64,000 bases of DNA from Erysipelothrix piscisicarius. GTDB taxonomy: Bacteria > Bacillota_I > Bacilli_A > Erysipelotrichales > Erysipelotrichaceae. Numbering within the stretch: the first letter of the stretch is position 1; the number at the start of each line of letters is the position of its first letter. The notes under the pieces are model-generated. The model was given only the letters and a program-made list of their open reading frames with translations, was not told where the DNA came from and did not search any database. The translations under genes and the position numbers were made by a program. Shown here one piece after another: positions 54,113 to 61,667 of this stretch. The stretch covers positions 186,001-250,000 of the forward strand of contig NZ_CP034234.1 of assembly GCF_003931795.1 (NCBI RefSeq). Direction: 5' to 3'.

Positions 54113-54695
54113 AAAAATCTCGGGTTTGTTTAATTTCTTCTGGAATTAATTGATGGCCATGGTGCGTGTGAAAGTGTGTTGTGAAAATGTTAGATGCGTT
54201 CAGTTTTTCAATCATCAATTCAATATCTTGAACATCAGTATACGGATCCCCTTCACCACTGGTTATCAATACTCGGGTTGGTAAATTTTGTGGAAATGGA
54301 ATCGCGGGTTGTACATGCATTGGATGAAATAACAGTGCATTTTTAAAGAGCATAAAATTCATTTTTAGTAAGTTTAACGTAATATTCGCACCATTTGAAT
54401 ATCCTACAACGGAAACGCACTCTAATGATCGATCATAATTTTTAAGTAATTTTAGAATCTCATTTCTTAAATTCGTTGTTTCCTGTTCCAAACTTTCGAG
54501 ATCGAATGTTTTCATATCGATACGTCTGAAATATCGATTCATTCCATCTTCCACAATATTCCCTCGAATGCCGATATATGTAGCTTCTGGATCGATATAA
54601 CGTGCAATCTGAAACATATCCTCTTCCGTTCCACCCGTTCCATGTAAACCTATAATCGTCCGCTCTGAAGTTCCTGGTATCATCTTATGAATCAT
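54102..54695 (-). CDS. Carboxylesterase/phospholipase-like hydrolase (MhqD type)
   Basis: 197-residue alpha/beta hydrolase. Oxyanion region IGLHGTGGTEEDMF, nucleophile GYSNGAN near residue 97, Asp in GEGDPYTD and His in HHGHQLI complete the triad. Resembles MhqD of Bacillus subtilis, a gene induced by hydroquinones and aldehydes. Overlaps the MarR gene end by 11 bases and the flavin reductase gene start by 11. Confidence 0.85.
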   Translation of the reverse strand: MIHKMIPGTSERTIIGLHGTGGTEEDMFQIARYIDPEATYIGIRGNIVEDGMNRYFRRIDMKTFDLESLEQETTNLRNEILKLLKNYDRSLECVSVVGYSNGANITLNLLKMNFMLFKNALLFHPMHVQPAIPFPQNLPTRVLITSGEGDPYTDVQDIELMIEKLNASNIFTTHFHTHHGHQLIPEEIKQTRDFYEI

Positions 54696-55110
54696 ACAAT
54701 CCCTCTTTCCCTATTTTTTTAAGAAGTGTTTGTAATGTCGCCTCTTCCTCGGGCGAAAGTCTGTCGAAACATTTTCGCATTTCCTGTTCATGCGTTCGAT
54801 AGATAATTTCGATTTCTGAAAGGCCCTTATTGCTTAACATAACATAGTTTATTCTTCGATCACGTTCGTCTTTCAAGCGCATAACGAGACCTTTCTTTTA
54901 TAATTGATCCACAACATATGTCATACTACTGCCTGGCACAAGTACGGTATCACAAAGAGCCTGAGTCGTGAGCTTTCCTTTATGATAGAGTGCTTCTAGA
55001 GCTTGAAACTCGTTCACATTAATATCAAAATCCTTAATACTCTCCTTAACGTGATCTAAGATAGTCTGATGTGTTCGGAAAAGTATGGTAAGTGTTTTAA
55101 GCGATGACAT
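54685..55110 (-). pseudogene. MarR-family regulator (MhqR-like), in-frame TAA
   Basis: Winged-helix repressor of 141 codons with one premature stop. N-terminal part has VNEFQALEALYHKGKLTTQA and LVPGSSMTYVVDQL. TAA at 54898-54900 follows, then the same frame continues KKGLVMRLKDERDRRINYVM and ends at 54685. In MarR proteins this place normally reads DRLEKKGLV, so GAA to TAA fits one change. It begins on the last base of the dioxygenase stop (TAATG). If real, the operon would be constantly on. Confidence 0.82.
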
Positions 55111-56172: not shown

Positions 56173-56194
56173 AAATGAACCCCTAAGGGTTCAT
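56173..56194 (-). terminator. Terminator of the DUF308/papain-like gene
   Basis: ATGAACCC-TTAG-GGGTTCAT followed by T6 on the minus strand. Confidence 0.85.
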
Positions 56195-57453
56195 TAAACT
56201 TCTTTTTTACGATATATTTCTCTCTTCACAACGATTGATCCTGGCTTATTGAGTAGATTATCAAGATAATCATAATAAGCACCCGGTGTAATAACACCAC
56301 TCATTTGAAAAAGTTTCATCCCCGTCGATTGAATAACATAATCCGCAATTAAGACACAGTTTGTGGTAAAAACATTATAGGTCTTAAATTCACCTTCTTT
56401 AAACTTATAATAATCAACAGAAGCTCCCGCATCAATCAAATTCGTAAGATGATGTTCTTTTTTAGTATCCAAATTATAGGGCCACTTAAAATAGTATGCA
56501 GACTTAAACAACTCATCCAAACGCTTTTCAACGAATTCACGTTGTTCCGTTGACAACTCACAAATAAATCGAAAAACAGTTGTATCGTCATCCACCGCAT
56601 ACTGAACATAATCAACTTCGCTACCCACAATCATAACACCATCGCCATATGCCATAGACTTAGCACGATTAAATGGATCATGTGCACCATAAGAATAAAT
56701 AACACCGTTATATCCAATATCTAAATGACCCATACGATTATAACCATGATCTTTCGCATAGATATAGATCGAGATATAGTTTCCTTCTGTCTTCACAACC
56801 TTATCGATAACGGCATCGGGATTGCTTTGAACTAATTTACGGGTCTCTTTTTCAAGAAAATATGGATTCATTGCGGCTAGAAAAACCGGTGCCGATAAAC
56901 GAACACTTGTTTGATGGCGCCATAAAACGCGAGCCGAAGATAGAATCGATACGATACCAAAAAAGATTACATATGCACCAATTTGAATATTCATTAAAAA
57001 TCGATTTGAGACGCCTCGTGTCAATAACACAATCCCCATAACCAAAGACACAATCGACGCAAAGAGCTTGAAGAGTTTATTTTTTTGCTTTTCATGAATT
57101 GCGACATAAAACTCAAGACCATGAACCACCGCATTAAACAGAGCCCAAATACCAAAAAACAATGCCATAATTTCGATATAAAGGGCTTCTTTATATCTAA
57201 TTAAACCAAGAAAAACACCCGAACCGAGCGCAATAAGTGCATCTGATATACTGCGATTCTTTACAGATCGATATAAGAATAGTACAAATGTTGCAGCTAA
57301 CATGGCCACAAACATCCAATAGATTAATGACCATAAAATTTTATCTCTAAATATAAATAAAACACCAACTATGACTGTAAAAACACCTAATAGAAGTTGG
57401 AAGATCAACGTTATCTTATCTTTTTTAGAAAGCGATTTAGTATAAGTTTCCAT
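56194..57453 (-). CDS. Membrane protein with C-terminal permuted papain-like (YiiX/NlpC-P60-like) domain
   Basis: 419 residues from ATG 57453 (AGAGGAC upstream). Residues 10-190 hold about six membrane segments arranged like HdeD/DUF308 (VTVIVGVLFIFRDK-type repeats). Residues 200-410 form a soluble domain with MGHLDIGYNGVIYSYGAHDP (His) and, later, VFTTNCVLIADYV (Cys). The His-before-Cys order fits permuted papain-like amidases such as YiiX. The role is unknown; cutting of a lipid, peptide or wall amide bond is possible. Confidence 0.65.
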   Translation of the reverse strand: METYTKSLSKKDKITLIFQLLLGVFTVIVGVLFIFRDKILWSLIYWMFVAMLAATFVLFLYRSVKNRSISDALIALGSGVFLGLIRYKEALYIEIMALFFGIWALFNAVVHGLEFYVAIHEKQKNKLFKLFASIVSLVMGIVLLTRGVSNRFLMNIQIGAYVIFFGIVSILSSARVLWRHQTSVRLSAPVFLAAMNPYFLEKETRKLVQSNPDAVIDKVVKTEGNYISIYIYAKDHGYNRMGHLDIGYNGVIYSYGAHDPFNRAKSMAYGDGVMIVGSEVDYVQYAVDDDTTVFRFICELSTEQREFVEKRLDELFKSAYYFKWPYNLDTKKEHHLTNLIDAGASVDYYKFKEGEFKTYNVFTTNCVLIADYVIQSTGMKLFQMSGVITPGAYYDYLDNLLNKPGSIVVKREIYRKKEV

Positions 57454-57500
57454 AATTGTCCTCTTCACATTTTTTCCCACGTTTATTATACCATTTATTC

Positions 57501-57529
57501 TTGATTTCCGCCCTGATTCCGTATATCAT
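57501..57529 (+). promoter_or_regulatory. Promoter of candidate small RNA
   Basis: TTGATT (57501-57506), 17-base spacer, TATCAT (57524-57529). The predicted first base at about 57535 coincides with the first hairpin. Confidence 0.6.
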
Positions 57530-57534
57530 ATAAG

Positions 57535-57686
57535 TAACAACTTGGAAAATAACGTAAGTTGTTACCGCAATTCATTGTCTCTCTTGAAATTTACTTCATG
57601 ATTTCCTTCTTAACCACTTATGAAGTAAATGATGATGAAACGCACTATCTCTCTAAGAAAAGAGCACCGAGCTCTTTTCTTTTTAT
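57535..57686 (+). ncRNA. Candidate small RNA of about 150 bases
   Basis: Lies between divergent genes and ends in a strong plus-strand terminator, AGAAAAGAGC-ACCGA-GCTCTTTTCT plus T-run (57656-57685). No plus-strand gene lies before it. Starts with hairpin GTAACAACTT/AAGTTGTTAC (57534-57565), then a stem ATTTACTTCAT/ATGAAGTAAAT (57589-57630). The linkers are single-stranded and each holds the motif TCTCTCT (57577-57584 and 57648-57654), a possible pairing site. No open frame with a ribosome-binding site. It could instead be a long leader of mutY with attenuator. Confidence 0.6.
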
Positions 57687-57707
57687 GTTATCGTGTATAC
57701 TATCATT

Positions 57708-58691
57708 ATGAACTTTACAGAACGACTCATGGGCTGGTATCACGAACATAAACGTGAATTACCATTTAGATCTCAAAAAGATCCTTATAAAATATGGGTA
57801 AGCGAAATCATGGCCCAACAAACACAAATCGCTACCATGATCCCCTACTACGATCGCTGGATTCAACGATATCCGAATGTGGAAAGCCTCGCTAAGGCTG
57901 AGATTGATGAAGTCTTAAAAATGTGGGAAGGCCTTGGTTATTATCGACGTGCACGAAATCTCCATGCAGGAGCGCAATTCGTTATGGAACATTACCAAGG
58001 TAAACTTCCAGCTGATAAGAAAGAACTCATGAAAATTCCCGGAATCGGTGATTATACCTCTAGTGCCATCGCCTCAATTGCTTTCAGTCTTCCTGAAATT
58101 GCAATCGATGGAAACGTAAAGCGTGTAATGGCACGATATCTTAACTATACCGAAAATGTCAATACACGGGCGTGTCATAAGTATTTTGAAGCCTTTCTGA
58201 AGGAAGAGTTACTCCTAAACGGAGCTGACCCCAGCGATTTCACGCAAGCCCTTATGGAACTTGGAGCACTTGTTTGTACCCCAAGTAATACGACATGCGA
58301 AGGCTGTCCATTTAAAGAAATGTGTGCTTGTTATCGTGGAGAATGTGTGGGTACAATACCCTTCATCCCAAAAGCGAAACCCGTTCCAATTTATGAAAAA
58401 TCTGTTATTATTTTTACCAAGGATGATAAAATTTTAATTTCTGATGATCATGAAGATGGGCTTATGGAAGGACTGTTACGATTACCTCAAATTGATGGGG
58501 TAATGGATTTGAATCCTGTGCTCACTTTGAAGCATAAGTTTTCCCATTTACAGTGGAATATTTCTGTTTTTATCGTTGAGAATATCCAAGACGTAAATCA
58601 AAATTGGTACTTTGTTCCACTAGAAGAATTAAAGAATCTAGCAATTATTACAGCTCATAAAAAAATACTCAAAAAACTAAACTTATTATAA
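57708..58691 (+). CDS. mutY: A/G-specific adenine glycosylase
   Basis: Removes adenine paired with 8-oxoguanine. 327 residues from ATG 57708; GTG 57693 is an upstream alternative. Catalytic Glu is in EIMAQQTQIATM, the helix-hairpin-helix is KIPGIGDYTSSAIAS, and catalytic Asp is in IAIDGNVKRVMARY. The iron-sulfur cluster is CTPSNTTCEGCPFKEMC. The C-terminal NUDIX-like domain is short. No ribosome-binding site is seen and TATACT lies only 9 bases ahead of the ATG, so the mRNA may be nearly leaderless. Confidence 0.92.
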   Translation: MNFTERLMGWYHEHKRELPFRSQKDPYKIWVSEIMAQQTQIATMIPYYDRWIQRYPNVESLAKAEIDEVLKMWEGLGYYRRARNLHAGAQFVMEHYQGKLPADKKELMKIPGIGDYTSSAIASIAFSLPEIAIDGNVKRVMARYLNYTENVNTRACHKYFEAFLKEELLLNGADPSDFTQALMELGALVCTPSNTTCEGCPFKEMCACYRGECVGTIPFIPKAKPVPIYEKSVIIFTKDDKILISDDHEDGLMEGLLRLPQIDGVMDLNPVLTLKHKFSHLQWNISVFIVENIQDVNQNWYFVPLEELKNLAIITAHKKILKKLNLL

Positions 58692-58748: not shown

Positions 58749-59558
58749 CTAGAAACCCTTATCCATTTTATATTGGATAGGGGTTTTGTAATTTAAACAG
58801 TAAGCAGGTCTTTCAAAATTGAAATAATGTACATATTCTTCGATAAAATTTTCAAAGTTATCTACGGACCAGTATTGATAATCACACGCCATTTCTGCTT
58901 TAATCCATCCATTTAATGATTCGATAATTGGATTATCTGTAGGTGTTCCAGCTCGCGACATAGATCTAATTATGTTATAATTTTCATGCGCTTTAGCGAA
59001 AGCTTTAGAGTGGTAGACAGCTCCTTGATCTGTGTGAAGAATCGTGGGAGCTGTTTTTTTTATTATCCTTAAGTAGCGCAAGGAGATCCTCGAGACACTT
59101 GTAGTAAGGCTTAGGATCACCAGTTGTACGCGATAATGCAGAACTGATAATTTCATTGTTAAAGGTATCAACCATTAAAGTCCATTCATATTAATCCCTT
59201 TGTTTCGAATATGTGTCATATCTGAAACAATAATTTCTAAAGGTTTGGTTGCCTCCATTGATTCTTTATAATATTAGGATAAATTCGACTTTGTGTTCCA
59301 GGTTTTATAGGAATAGTGTTTAACTTTTGATTTAATATTTAAAAACTTGCAACACTTGTGGATTAAATTATCGGAAAATTCAATCCCTAAATCACTTTGC
59401 TTTCTCATGACTGCAGCGATATCATGATAACCATAACTTGGAAAACGGCGATGCCAGTCTTTAATCACAAAGCTAAGAATCGCTCTTTTTTGTTCATAAA
59501 TATTGAGATCATTCTTATGCTTTAACCACTTGTAATAACCAGATCGGTTCAAATTCAT
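58749..59558 (-). pseudogene. IS3-family transposase OrfB, degenerate
   Basis: Reads in pieces. MNLNRSGYYKWLKHKNDLNI to an in-frame TAA after TKSNLS, then YYKESMEATKPLEIIVSDMTHI with the first catalytic Asp, a frame change before WTLMVDTFNNEIISSALS, and another in an A8 run before APTILHTDQGAVYHSKAF (second Asp). NPIIESLNGWIKAE gives the Glu. At least one stop and two frame changes. The element is unlikely to move by itself. Confidence 0.8.
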
Positions 59559-59605
59559 AAATCTAAGAATGAACGTAATCGGATGTTTAAAAGATAAGTC
59601 ATGTG

Positions 59606-59980
59606 CTATTTGGAATTCTTGTCTTTTAAAGTAACGAACTCCTTGTTTACACCAACTCCTTTCACCTGGTACTCTTTTTTTAATCGTGCAATCTCAATAT
59701 CTCGTTTTAGAATTTCGAGTTGAAGTCGTTCGATCTCAGTTAATGATTTACTCGTATGAAGCGCAGAAAAATGATTTCCTGTCTTTTTCTTGTTTTTTAA
59801 ACCCTCTTTACCATCACGCATGAATCGATCAATCCAACCATTAATCGTTCCTTTAGGTATTCCTGTTTCTTGTGATAGTTTCGCAGCACTTATATGTTCA
59901 TCAATATGACGTGTAACGACTTTAATACGATCCTCATAAGTCCATTTATTATTTAATCCACCTTTGGGTCTTCCCATCAT
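59606..59980 (-). CDS. IS3-family transposase OrfA
   Basis: About 124 residues from ATG 59980 (CGGAGG upstream). N terminus GRPKGGLNNKWTYEDRIKVV, HTH in AAKLSQETGIPKGTINGWID, and a C-terminal coiled coil with LQLEILKRDIEIARLKKEYQ. Typical DNA-binding half; its orfB partner is broken. Confidence 0.8.
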   Translation of the reverse strand: MMGRPKGGLNNKWTYEDRIKVVTRHIDEHISAAKLSQETGIPKGTINGWIDRFMRDGKEGLKNKKKTGNHFSALHTSKSLTEIERLQLEILKRDIEIARLKKEYQVKGVGVNKEFVTLKDKNSK

Positions 59981-60070
59981 TAATACCTCCGTTTTATCTC
60001 TGATTTTATTATTACACAAAAAAGTAGACAAGTCTTTTTTACTTGTCTACTTTTAGTTTACTACTCCACA

Positions 60071-60108: not shown

Positions 60109-61470
60109 TTAACTCATTGCTGTAATTACAAAGTTTAAAATAAATAGAATTGCACTACCATAGACGATTGGATGAACCTTTGATGCACGTTTCATTGAAA
60201 CTTCTACTACAATGTAAGCAATAAAACCACATGCAATACCATTTGAAATACTATAGGTTAATACAGTCATGATTACTGTAAAGAAAGCTGGTACAGCCTT
60301 TTCAAAGTTAGCCCATTCAATATCTGCGAATGAAGCACTCATCAAGATACCAACAACGATTAATGCCGGAGCAGTAGCTGCTGGCGGAATTAAACTAACA
60401 ACTGGCGCTAGAATAATACTTGCTAAGAAACACGCTGCTGTAACGACAGAGGTTAATCCAGTGCGTCCACCCGCTCCAATTCCGGCAGAACTTTCAACAA
60501 ATGTTGTAACATTTGAAGTTCCAAGAACTGCACCTGCTGTTGTCGCAATCATATCTGCAAATAATCCACGTTCCAATTTTGACTTCATACCACTTCCTGA
60601 TTCTAATGAATCTTGGTCTTCTTGAGAAAAAATTCCTGAACGACGACCTGTACCAATAAAAGTACCAATGGTATCAAATGTATCGGTTAATGAGAATGCA
60701 AAGATGATTGGAATAATTTTTGTTAAATTGTAATTTGTGAAGAGGCTAATAAGACCTTCTTGACCTAATGCTTTTCCAAAAATTTCCCCAAATTCTTTAA
60801 AAATAACTGAGAATCCAACGGTTCATTGAGCCGCTCCTCCAAGCTGAACAACACCCATTGGAATACCGATAACGGTAGTTGCAAGAATACCGATTAAAAT
60901 AGCACCCTTAACTTTTTTAAGCATTAACACAATAGTAATAATAAGGCCAATTACTGCCAACACGATACTTGGATCCTTGAATGTTGTGATTGATGGGACT
61001 GCTCCAAATTCAATAAATTTGATATTTAATAATCCAATATAAGCGATAAACAATCCAATTCCGGCACTGATTGCAAGTTGTAAAGTTTCAGGAATCGCTT
61101 TAATGAGATGCTTACGGATATTTGTAACGGTCATAAACATATTTAATAAACCGCAAATAAATACCATTGCGAGTGCTTCGTATGGTGTAAATCCCCCTAC
61201 TAAAACAACTGTATACGTAAAGAATGCATTCAATCCCATACCCGGAGCTTGTGCATAAGGGATATTCGCGAATAACCCCATGATGAGTGTTCCAATTACA
61301 GATGCAAGAATTATTGCAATATAAACCCCATTATAAGGCAACCCTGACTCAGATAATATTTGTGGATTCACAAAAAGAATATATGCCATTGCAAAGAATG
61401 TTGTTATTCCTGCCAGCACCTCCGTACCCACTGTTGTATTATTTTCCTTGAGCTTAAAGAATTTTTCCAT
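60109..61470 (-). pseudogene. NCS2/AzgA-family purine permease, in-frame TGA
   Basis: Hypoxanthine/guanine importer (PbuG/PbuO-like), 453 codons. Start at ATG 61470 with GGAGATAAA-type site. The N-terminal FFKLKENNTTVGTEVLAGIT and APGMGLNAFFTYTVVL, and C-terminal VSRGLFADMI-like and GAGGRTGLTSVVTA parts, fit the family. Codon 216 (60823-60825) is TGA, and the same frame then continues as TVGFSVIFKEFGEIF to 60109. One change from TGG (Trp) would explain it. The guanine riboswitch upstream is intact, so the unit was recently working. Confidence 0.87.
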
Positions 61471-61518: not shown

Positions 61519-61540
61519 AAGATCGGGAGAAAACGATCTT
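61519..61540 (-). terminator. Riboswitch terminator
   Basis: AAGATCG-TTTTCTCC-CGATCTT followed by T6 on the minus strand, between the purine aptamer and the permease gene. It is the likely expression platform. Confidence 0.8.
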
Positions 61541-61544
61541 GCGA

Positions 61545-61636
61545 GTTTTCACCACGATAGTCGATGTGTTTACGGTACATCGGTAGATACTACCCAACCA
61601 TATTATGGGTATTATATTTGGTTATTAATACATTGA
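61545..61636 (-). promoter_or_regulatory. Guanine (purine) riboswitch
   Basis: On the minus strand the aptamer shows P2 TACCC-ATAATATGGT-TGGGTA, the joining sequence GTATCTACCGA, P3 CGATGT-ACCGTAAAC-ACATCG, and GACTATCG at J3/1. The C in GACTAT (not GATTAT) marks guanine/hypoxanthine specificity. It lies ahead of a purine permease, as expected: ligand binding would favour the terminator and turn the importer off. The P1 stem is only partly clear. Confidence 0.85.
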
Positions 61637-61638
61637 TA

Positions 61639-61667
61639 GTATAGGTTAGTTCAAGTCCCAATGTCAA
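61639..61667 (-). promoter_or_regulatory. Promoter of the purine permease
   Basis: On the minus strand TTGACA (61662-61667), 17-base spacer, TATACT (61639-61644), just ahead of the riboswitch. Confidence 0.75.

Follow-up and report, generated by a model that had tools for sequence, protein, structure and literature searches.

RsaE/RoxS and the other staphylococcal Rsa sRNAs, described in Bacillus and Staphylococcus, contain C-rich single-stranded regions that can pair with Shine-Dalgarno sequences (PMC4409812). The CiaR-dependent csRNAs of streptococci possess unpaired stretches complementary to the Shine-Dalgarno sequence and the start codon, including anti-GUG versions (PMC3091779). Erysipelothrix is far from the Bacillus and Staphylococcus models, and its lineage may lack Hfq. 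In the part of the literature that was covered, we found no paper on a small regulatory RNA of this genus, and the text of the E. rhusiopathiae transcriptome paper contains none of the terms sRNA, small RNA or non-coding (PMC4968806). In a 64,000-nt stretch of the Erysipelothrix piscisicarius genome (the window), we analyzed the intergenic region between two divergent genes, in which positions 57536-57686 of the plus strand probably encode, as a stand-alone gene, a small regulatory RNA that acts in trans and has a predicted length of about 150 nt. The sRNA family to which it belongs is new and spans the genus; its functional kind is known, and the type of mechanism is not new. Like RsaE/RoxS and the other Rsa sRNAs, the RNA is a short stand-alone sRNA of a low-GC Gram-positive bacterium with a single-stranded region complementary to the Shine-Dalgarno sequence. 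It differs from RsaE/RoxS by another sequence and locus, the absence of an Rfam match and the presentation of the loop UUUCCUUCUUAACCAC on a covarying stem. As in the csRNAs, a linker (CACUAUCUCUCU) combines CAC (anti-GUG) with an anti-Shine-Dalgarno tract, but the csRNAs form a multicopy CiaRH regulon whereas the Erysipelothrix RNA is single-copy. The CiaR site is a tandem TTTAAG repeat; reading of the sequence from 57480 to 57535 revealed no such repeat at the promoter. We compare the RNA with RsaE/RoxS and the csRNAs by mode of action and not by descent.

A search of Rfam 15 gave no match at the gathering threshold for the RNA or its relatives, neither to RsaE/RoxS nor to 6S RNA nor to any other family. 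Matches to STnc290 and to snoRNA and miRNA families obtained under loose settings were below threshold and at chance level. Listeria rli45, which is annotated as antisense to rli46 (PMC4374534), matched weakly on the opposite strand over the promoter and the 5′ hairpin. Its 28.4 bits are far under the gathering score of 60 and were taken as chance similarity.

Within the intergenic region, the RNA gene has its own promoter and its own intrinsic terminator; the features are listed in Table 1. The promoter TTGATT-17-TATCAT, which had been claimed in the initial annotation, is present at 57501-57529 with 9/12 promoter matches. Taken alone, such a match is unremarkable, with 14 sites of this kind found versus 10.5 in shuffled sequences. 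The locus is more than a chance match because it is conserved: all 12 genomes carrying the RNA keep the promoter with its 17-nt spacer and 6-nt discriminator, in the form TTGnnn-17-TAT[CT]AT followed by exactly 6 nt to A[AG]CAACTT. For the divergent species, BLAST similarity begins at query base 30, corresponding to 57524, the first base of the -10 box. By its sequence the promoter is of the housekeeping type, and the predicted terminator ends the RNA ahead of mutY's own promoter. The predicted first base had been described as the one that opens a 10-bp hairpin. The hairpin exists, but its two lowest base pairs are not conserved, and the predicted transcription start more likely lies at about 57535-57537.

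Table 1. Features of the sRNA locus and its neighbours (positions in the window)
Feature	Position	Strand	Remark
-35 element TTGATT	57501-57506	+	TTG at the same place in 12/12 genomes
-10 element TATCAT	57524-57529	+	spacer exactly 17 nt in 12/12 genomes
5′ hairpin GTAACAACTT...AAGTTGTTAC	57534-57565	+	98.9% of cells paired
5′ hairpin, conserved core AACAACTT/AAGTTGTT	57536-57563	+	
Central hairpin	57571-57639	+	16/21 pairs changed on both sides
Central hairpin, outer stem	57571-57579/57631-57639	+	
Central hairpin, 5′ bulge	57580-57588	+	holds most of the first TCTCTCT
Central hairpin, inner stem	57589-57601/57618-57630	+	
Apical loop UUUCCUUCUUAACCAC	57602-57617	+	unpaired; complementary to Shine-Dalgarno AAGAAGGAAA; proposed target-pairing site
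Single-stranded linker ACGCACUAUCUCUCU	57640-57654	+	ahead of terminator
Intrinsic terminator (11-bp stem, ACCGA loop, U tract)	57655-57686	+	stem 57655-57681
mutY -10 box TATACT	57696-57701	+	6 nt ahead of ATG (57708)
mutY, adenine glycosylase (HhH-GPD + NUDIX_4)	57708-58691	+	downstream neighbour
Divergent membrane-protein gene	56194-57450	-	upstream neighbour; DUF308 match weak, just below Pfam cut-off

The transcript 57536-57686 folds with a predicted energy of -40.1 kcal/mol compared to -20.1 ± 3.7 kcal/mol for shuffled sequences (z = -5.38), and none of 200 shuffles was as stable. In a structure-based alignment of 12 sequences (11 distinct), 25 of the 40 base pairs showed two-sided compensatory changes, 90.5% of the cells were paired and the covariation score was 0.388, figures which are somewhat favoured by the fitting of the alignment to the structure. 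Not one of 500 shuffles reached any of these three values. When the pairing partner was slid by one to three columns as a control, only 4-10 pairs had two-sided changes, versus 25 in the real alignment. The 5′ hairpin is near-invariant in sequence and thus provides little information from covariation. In the central stem and the terminator, the sequence differs between species while pairing is kept, also when each sequence is folded alone. The second 11-bp stem of the initial annotation was recovered as an exact repeat (ATTTACTTCAT/ATGAAGTAAAT) at 57589-57630, and the claimed plus-strand terminator was found as a stem that varies by species and is kept through compensatory changes (9/11 pairs two-sided). 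The stems are thus conserved in relatives, a point that had been named as a test of the proposal. The proposed regulatory RNA, about 150 bases long and with a promoter of its own, is supported by the conserved promoter, the covariation and the genus-wide conservation as a single copy. That the locus encodes a small protein, or has a dual function, is highly improbable. Frames of 19-50 codons starting with TTG or ATG do occur in some genomes, but no ORF with a start codon inside the RNA is common to the Erysipelothrix species compared, several genomes lack any ORF of at least 12 codons, and the helices covary base by base.

Twelve of the 13 available Erysipelothrix genomes have the RNA, each as a single copy; a DNA search found it in 11 besides that of E. 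piscisicarius. The records include ones named E. tonsillarum, E. urinaevulpis and E. inopinata. In the remaining member of the genus (G001, 88% complete), it was missing at this locus. A covariance model of the Erysipelothrix RNA (R1) detected one copy in the whole E. piscisicarius genome, with the next best match at E = 0.095. When R1 was applied to 146 sampled genomes of the family and 296 of the class, it found nothing above chance outside the genus; weak matches in G013, G128 and G333 were those expected by chance for this number of genomes. No phage records carrying the RNA were found.

In all genomes with the RNA except one (11/12), mutY follows closely downstream in the same orientation, and the initial annotation had considered a long mutY leader as an alternative. 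Such a cis-acting, riboswitch-like leader or attenuator, in which the terminator would control read-through into mutY, would also suit the occurrence of an RNA with an anti-Shine-Dalgarno loop before mutY in another genus (g8, see below). We nevertheless regard it as improbable. In 12 Erysipelothrix genomes, positions -12 to -7 relative to the mutY ATG are occupied by a TATA(A/C/G)T box, which in G011 is shifted away by one base, to 7 nt from the ATG. All 13 genomes thus have this -10 box, also G003 and G001, the latter being the genome in which the RNA is missing at this locus. G003 has retained the RNA, but a distance of about 2 kb containing additional ORFs separates it from mutY. Based on the -10 box in 13/13 genomes and the separation in G003, we predict that mutY is transcribed independently of the RNA into a leaderless mRNA. 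Both observations speak against co-transcription of mutY from the RNA promoter, as expected for a leader or riboswitch. Furthermore, no alternative antiterminator pairing was seen, the terminator being a separate covarying hairpin in every fold. These data favour the stand-alone sRNA gene.

The most informative element of this gene, missing from the initial annotation, is the invariant apical loop at 57602-57617. The 16 nt of UUUCCUUCUUAACCAC are identical in 10 genomes (type A), whereas G008 and G011 have another apical domain with GCUCCUUUC on one side and ACCUCU on the other (UCCUUUC-type loop). The type-A loop is complementary to Shine-Dalgarno sequences of the AAGAAGGAAA type together with a specific extension, GUGGUU. 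CUCCUUUCU is also present in the 3′ end of the 16S rRNA of the same genome (GGATCACCTCCTTTCT). The linker CACUAUCUCUC (57643-57653) is identical in 12/12 genomes. In the predicted folds of every genome checked, loop and linker are mostly unpaired. Two single-stranded linkers with TCTCTCT had been proposed as partners of GAGAG-rich sites. The second copy (57648-57654) does belong to a conserved linker, but the first (57578-57584) overlaps both the outer stem and an asymmetric bulge in the central hairpin; it is confined to E. inopinata and the nearest relatives and is missing from most species. Pairing with GAGAG-rich sites is possible for the second copy only, and target pairing is more readily attributed to the apical loop. 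Conservation of the loop beyond the need of anti-Shine-Dalgarno pairing, and of the linker even where the loop differs, would also be expected if both bound a protein, in a structural RNA, for instance one that sequesters an RNA-binding protein or acts like 6S RNA. This is unlikely, though less so than a mutY leader, since both loop types hold Shine-Dalgarno-complementary sequences (UUUCCUUCUU and CUCCUUUC), which fit mRNA pairing better. An identity as 6S RNA was rejected because 6S RNA is encoded elsewhere in the genome, and the lack of an Rfam match at curated thresholds likewise speaks against a protein-binding RNA of this kind.

For the trans-acting sRNA, we propose that three hairpins shape the RNA, whose synthesis would start at the housekeeping-type promoter and end at the intrinsic terminator. 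The covarying central stem would present the fixed 16-nt single-stranded loop, and the fixed linker would stand ahead of the terminator. The RNA would then act in trans by pairing with Shine-Dalgarno regions of mRNAs, probably without Hfq. As the unchanging loop matches ribosome-binding sites, the RNA probably switches off the translation of other messages, and blocked ribosome binding is the likely way of repression. A tblastn search with Hfq of B. subtilis or E. coli gave no convincing match (best E = 0.45; distant Sm-like proteins are still possible), and Hfq-independent pairing was therefore assumed. Pairing of this type occurs in many low-GC Gram-positive bacteria.

To find candidate targets, we scanned 1831 translation starts of the E. 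piscisicarius genome (G000) predicted by simple gene calls. The best partner of the loop was the mRNA of a MATE-family transporter (ΔG -21.5; Pfam MatE, E = 8.7e-60) with the site AUGGUUAAGAAGGAAGG, which ends near the start codon. The short leader UGGUUAAGAAGG(A/G) could form up to 15 contiguous base pairs with the loop, G-U pairs included. Dinucleotide-shuffled loops scored as well somewhere in 14 of 400 cases, and in 27 of 400 when the anti-Shine-Dalgarno half was kept, so that the match alone has a p of about 0.04-0.07. In the MATE orthologue of E. tonsillarum, UGGUUAAGAAGG is kept, and in that of E. urinaevulpis, which is 77-78% identical over the first 80 residues, AUGGUUAAGAAGGGAG is kept while the flanking bases have changed. 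The 12-mer TGGTTAAGAAGG occurs seven times outside the RNA gene over the 13 genomes. All five genomes with a close MATE orthologue, the divergent E. urinaevulpis among them, have it at the ribosome-binding site of this gene. The other two occurrences, neither of which precedes a gene start, were discarded: that in G012 is part of a coding frame, and that in G003 is not followed by a start codon with an open frame. The support for this target is moderate, because 21% of 334 orthologue pairs of G000 and G010 have a conserved 12-nt block near the start. The MATE mRNA is the lead candidate target, an assignment that we make tentatively. No close MATE orthologue was found in five type-A genomes that keep the loop, indicating that other targets must exist; a joint scan with 700 kb of G010 yielded nothing beyond shuffles. 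With its single copy, its covarying stem, its invariant pairing loop and the MATE mRNA as predicted target, the sRNA offers a post-transcriptional regulator that is immediately testable.

Two other candidate targets were rejected. A linker site in front of sbcD (AGAGGGAUAGUGUG, ΔG -22.1) was restricted to G000 in a pattern search of the 13 genomes, and the match to this site in G010 precedes a different gene. For pgi, which from its protein sequence we take to encode glucose-6-phosphate isomerase, a loop site shared with G010 was equalled by 68 of 200 shuffles and lies inside the end of the upstream reading frame. The genome also contains at least eight copies of an ORF with a helix-turn-helix motif (MAKLTRKQKIEIYEKRKLGQ...), probably orfA of an insertion sequence (e.g., G000:C1:227866, 262464, 275240, 343504, 525556, 615826, 1248378 and 1303398). 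Since these copies have the same start region, they inflate the target scan with the linker.

In genus g8 of the same family, a similarly built RNA candidate precedes mutY on the same strand (loci L105-L111). It comprises a promoter-like TTGnnn-17-TATAAT, a CAAC-type 5′ hairpin, a central stem with the CU-rich anti-Shine-Dalgarno loop CUUCCCUCCUUG and, past the central region, the string CGCACUAU, as well as a terminator. Place, strand, 5′ CAAC-type hairpin, anti-Shine-Dalgarno loop, CGCACUAU and terminator are shared with the Erysipelothrix RNA. A covariance model of the g8 RNAs (R2) gave strong matches in 6/7 g8 genomes and a weaker one in the remaining genome, G129 (E = 1e-5), and it did not recognise the Erysipelothrix RNAs. 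R1 reached at best 15 bits on g8 (E = 0.13). With both models performing in this way, homology is suggested but not proven; shared position and architecture suggest a common origin of the two RNAs. In G020 and G021, which are closer outgroups by mutY identity, nothing comparable was found before mutY. The g8 RNA differs from the Erysipelothrix RNA by a possible pseudoknot in L105-L110, in which GGTGAAC of the central domain would pair with GTTCACC ahead of the terminator; in the corresponding alignment columns (103-109/151-157), 95% of the cells are paired and there are no two-sided changes.

More speculatively, the locus before mutY might harbor one fast-evolving sRNA family spanning at least two genera. 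A fixed scaffold of promoter geometry, 5′ hairpin, 3′ linker and terminator would be combined with a stem-borne loop that is exchanged as a module, each loop mimicking the 16S rRNA 3′ end more or less closely. The exchanged loops would be UUUCCUUCUUAACCAC in most Erysipelothrix genomes, GCUCCUUUC with ACCUCU in two species and CUUCCCUCCUUG in genus g8. If true, the locus would provide a natural series in which changes in the target set of an sRNA could be followed, and loop exchange within one genus and at one locus would make the evolution of sRNA targeting accessible.

Some further features of the window were recorded. Directly downstream of mutY, ORFs resembling the two frames of an IS3-type transposase lie in pieces on the minus strand (58749-60031). 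A reading frame recognised by eye as a probable MarR-type regulator (54685-55110, minus strand) is interrupted by one in-frame stop codon. Finally, a purine riboswitch detected above the Rfam threshold (61537-61639) is located ahead of a permease gene (60109-61470, minus strand), whose frame contains one in-frame stop codon and is thereby divided into two ORFs (215 and 159 amino acids).
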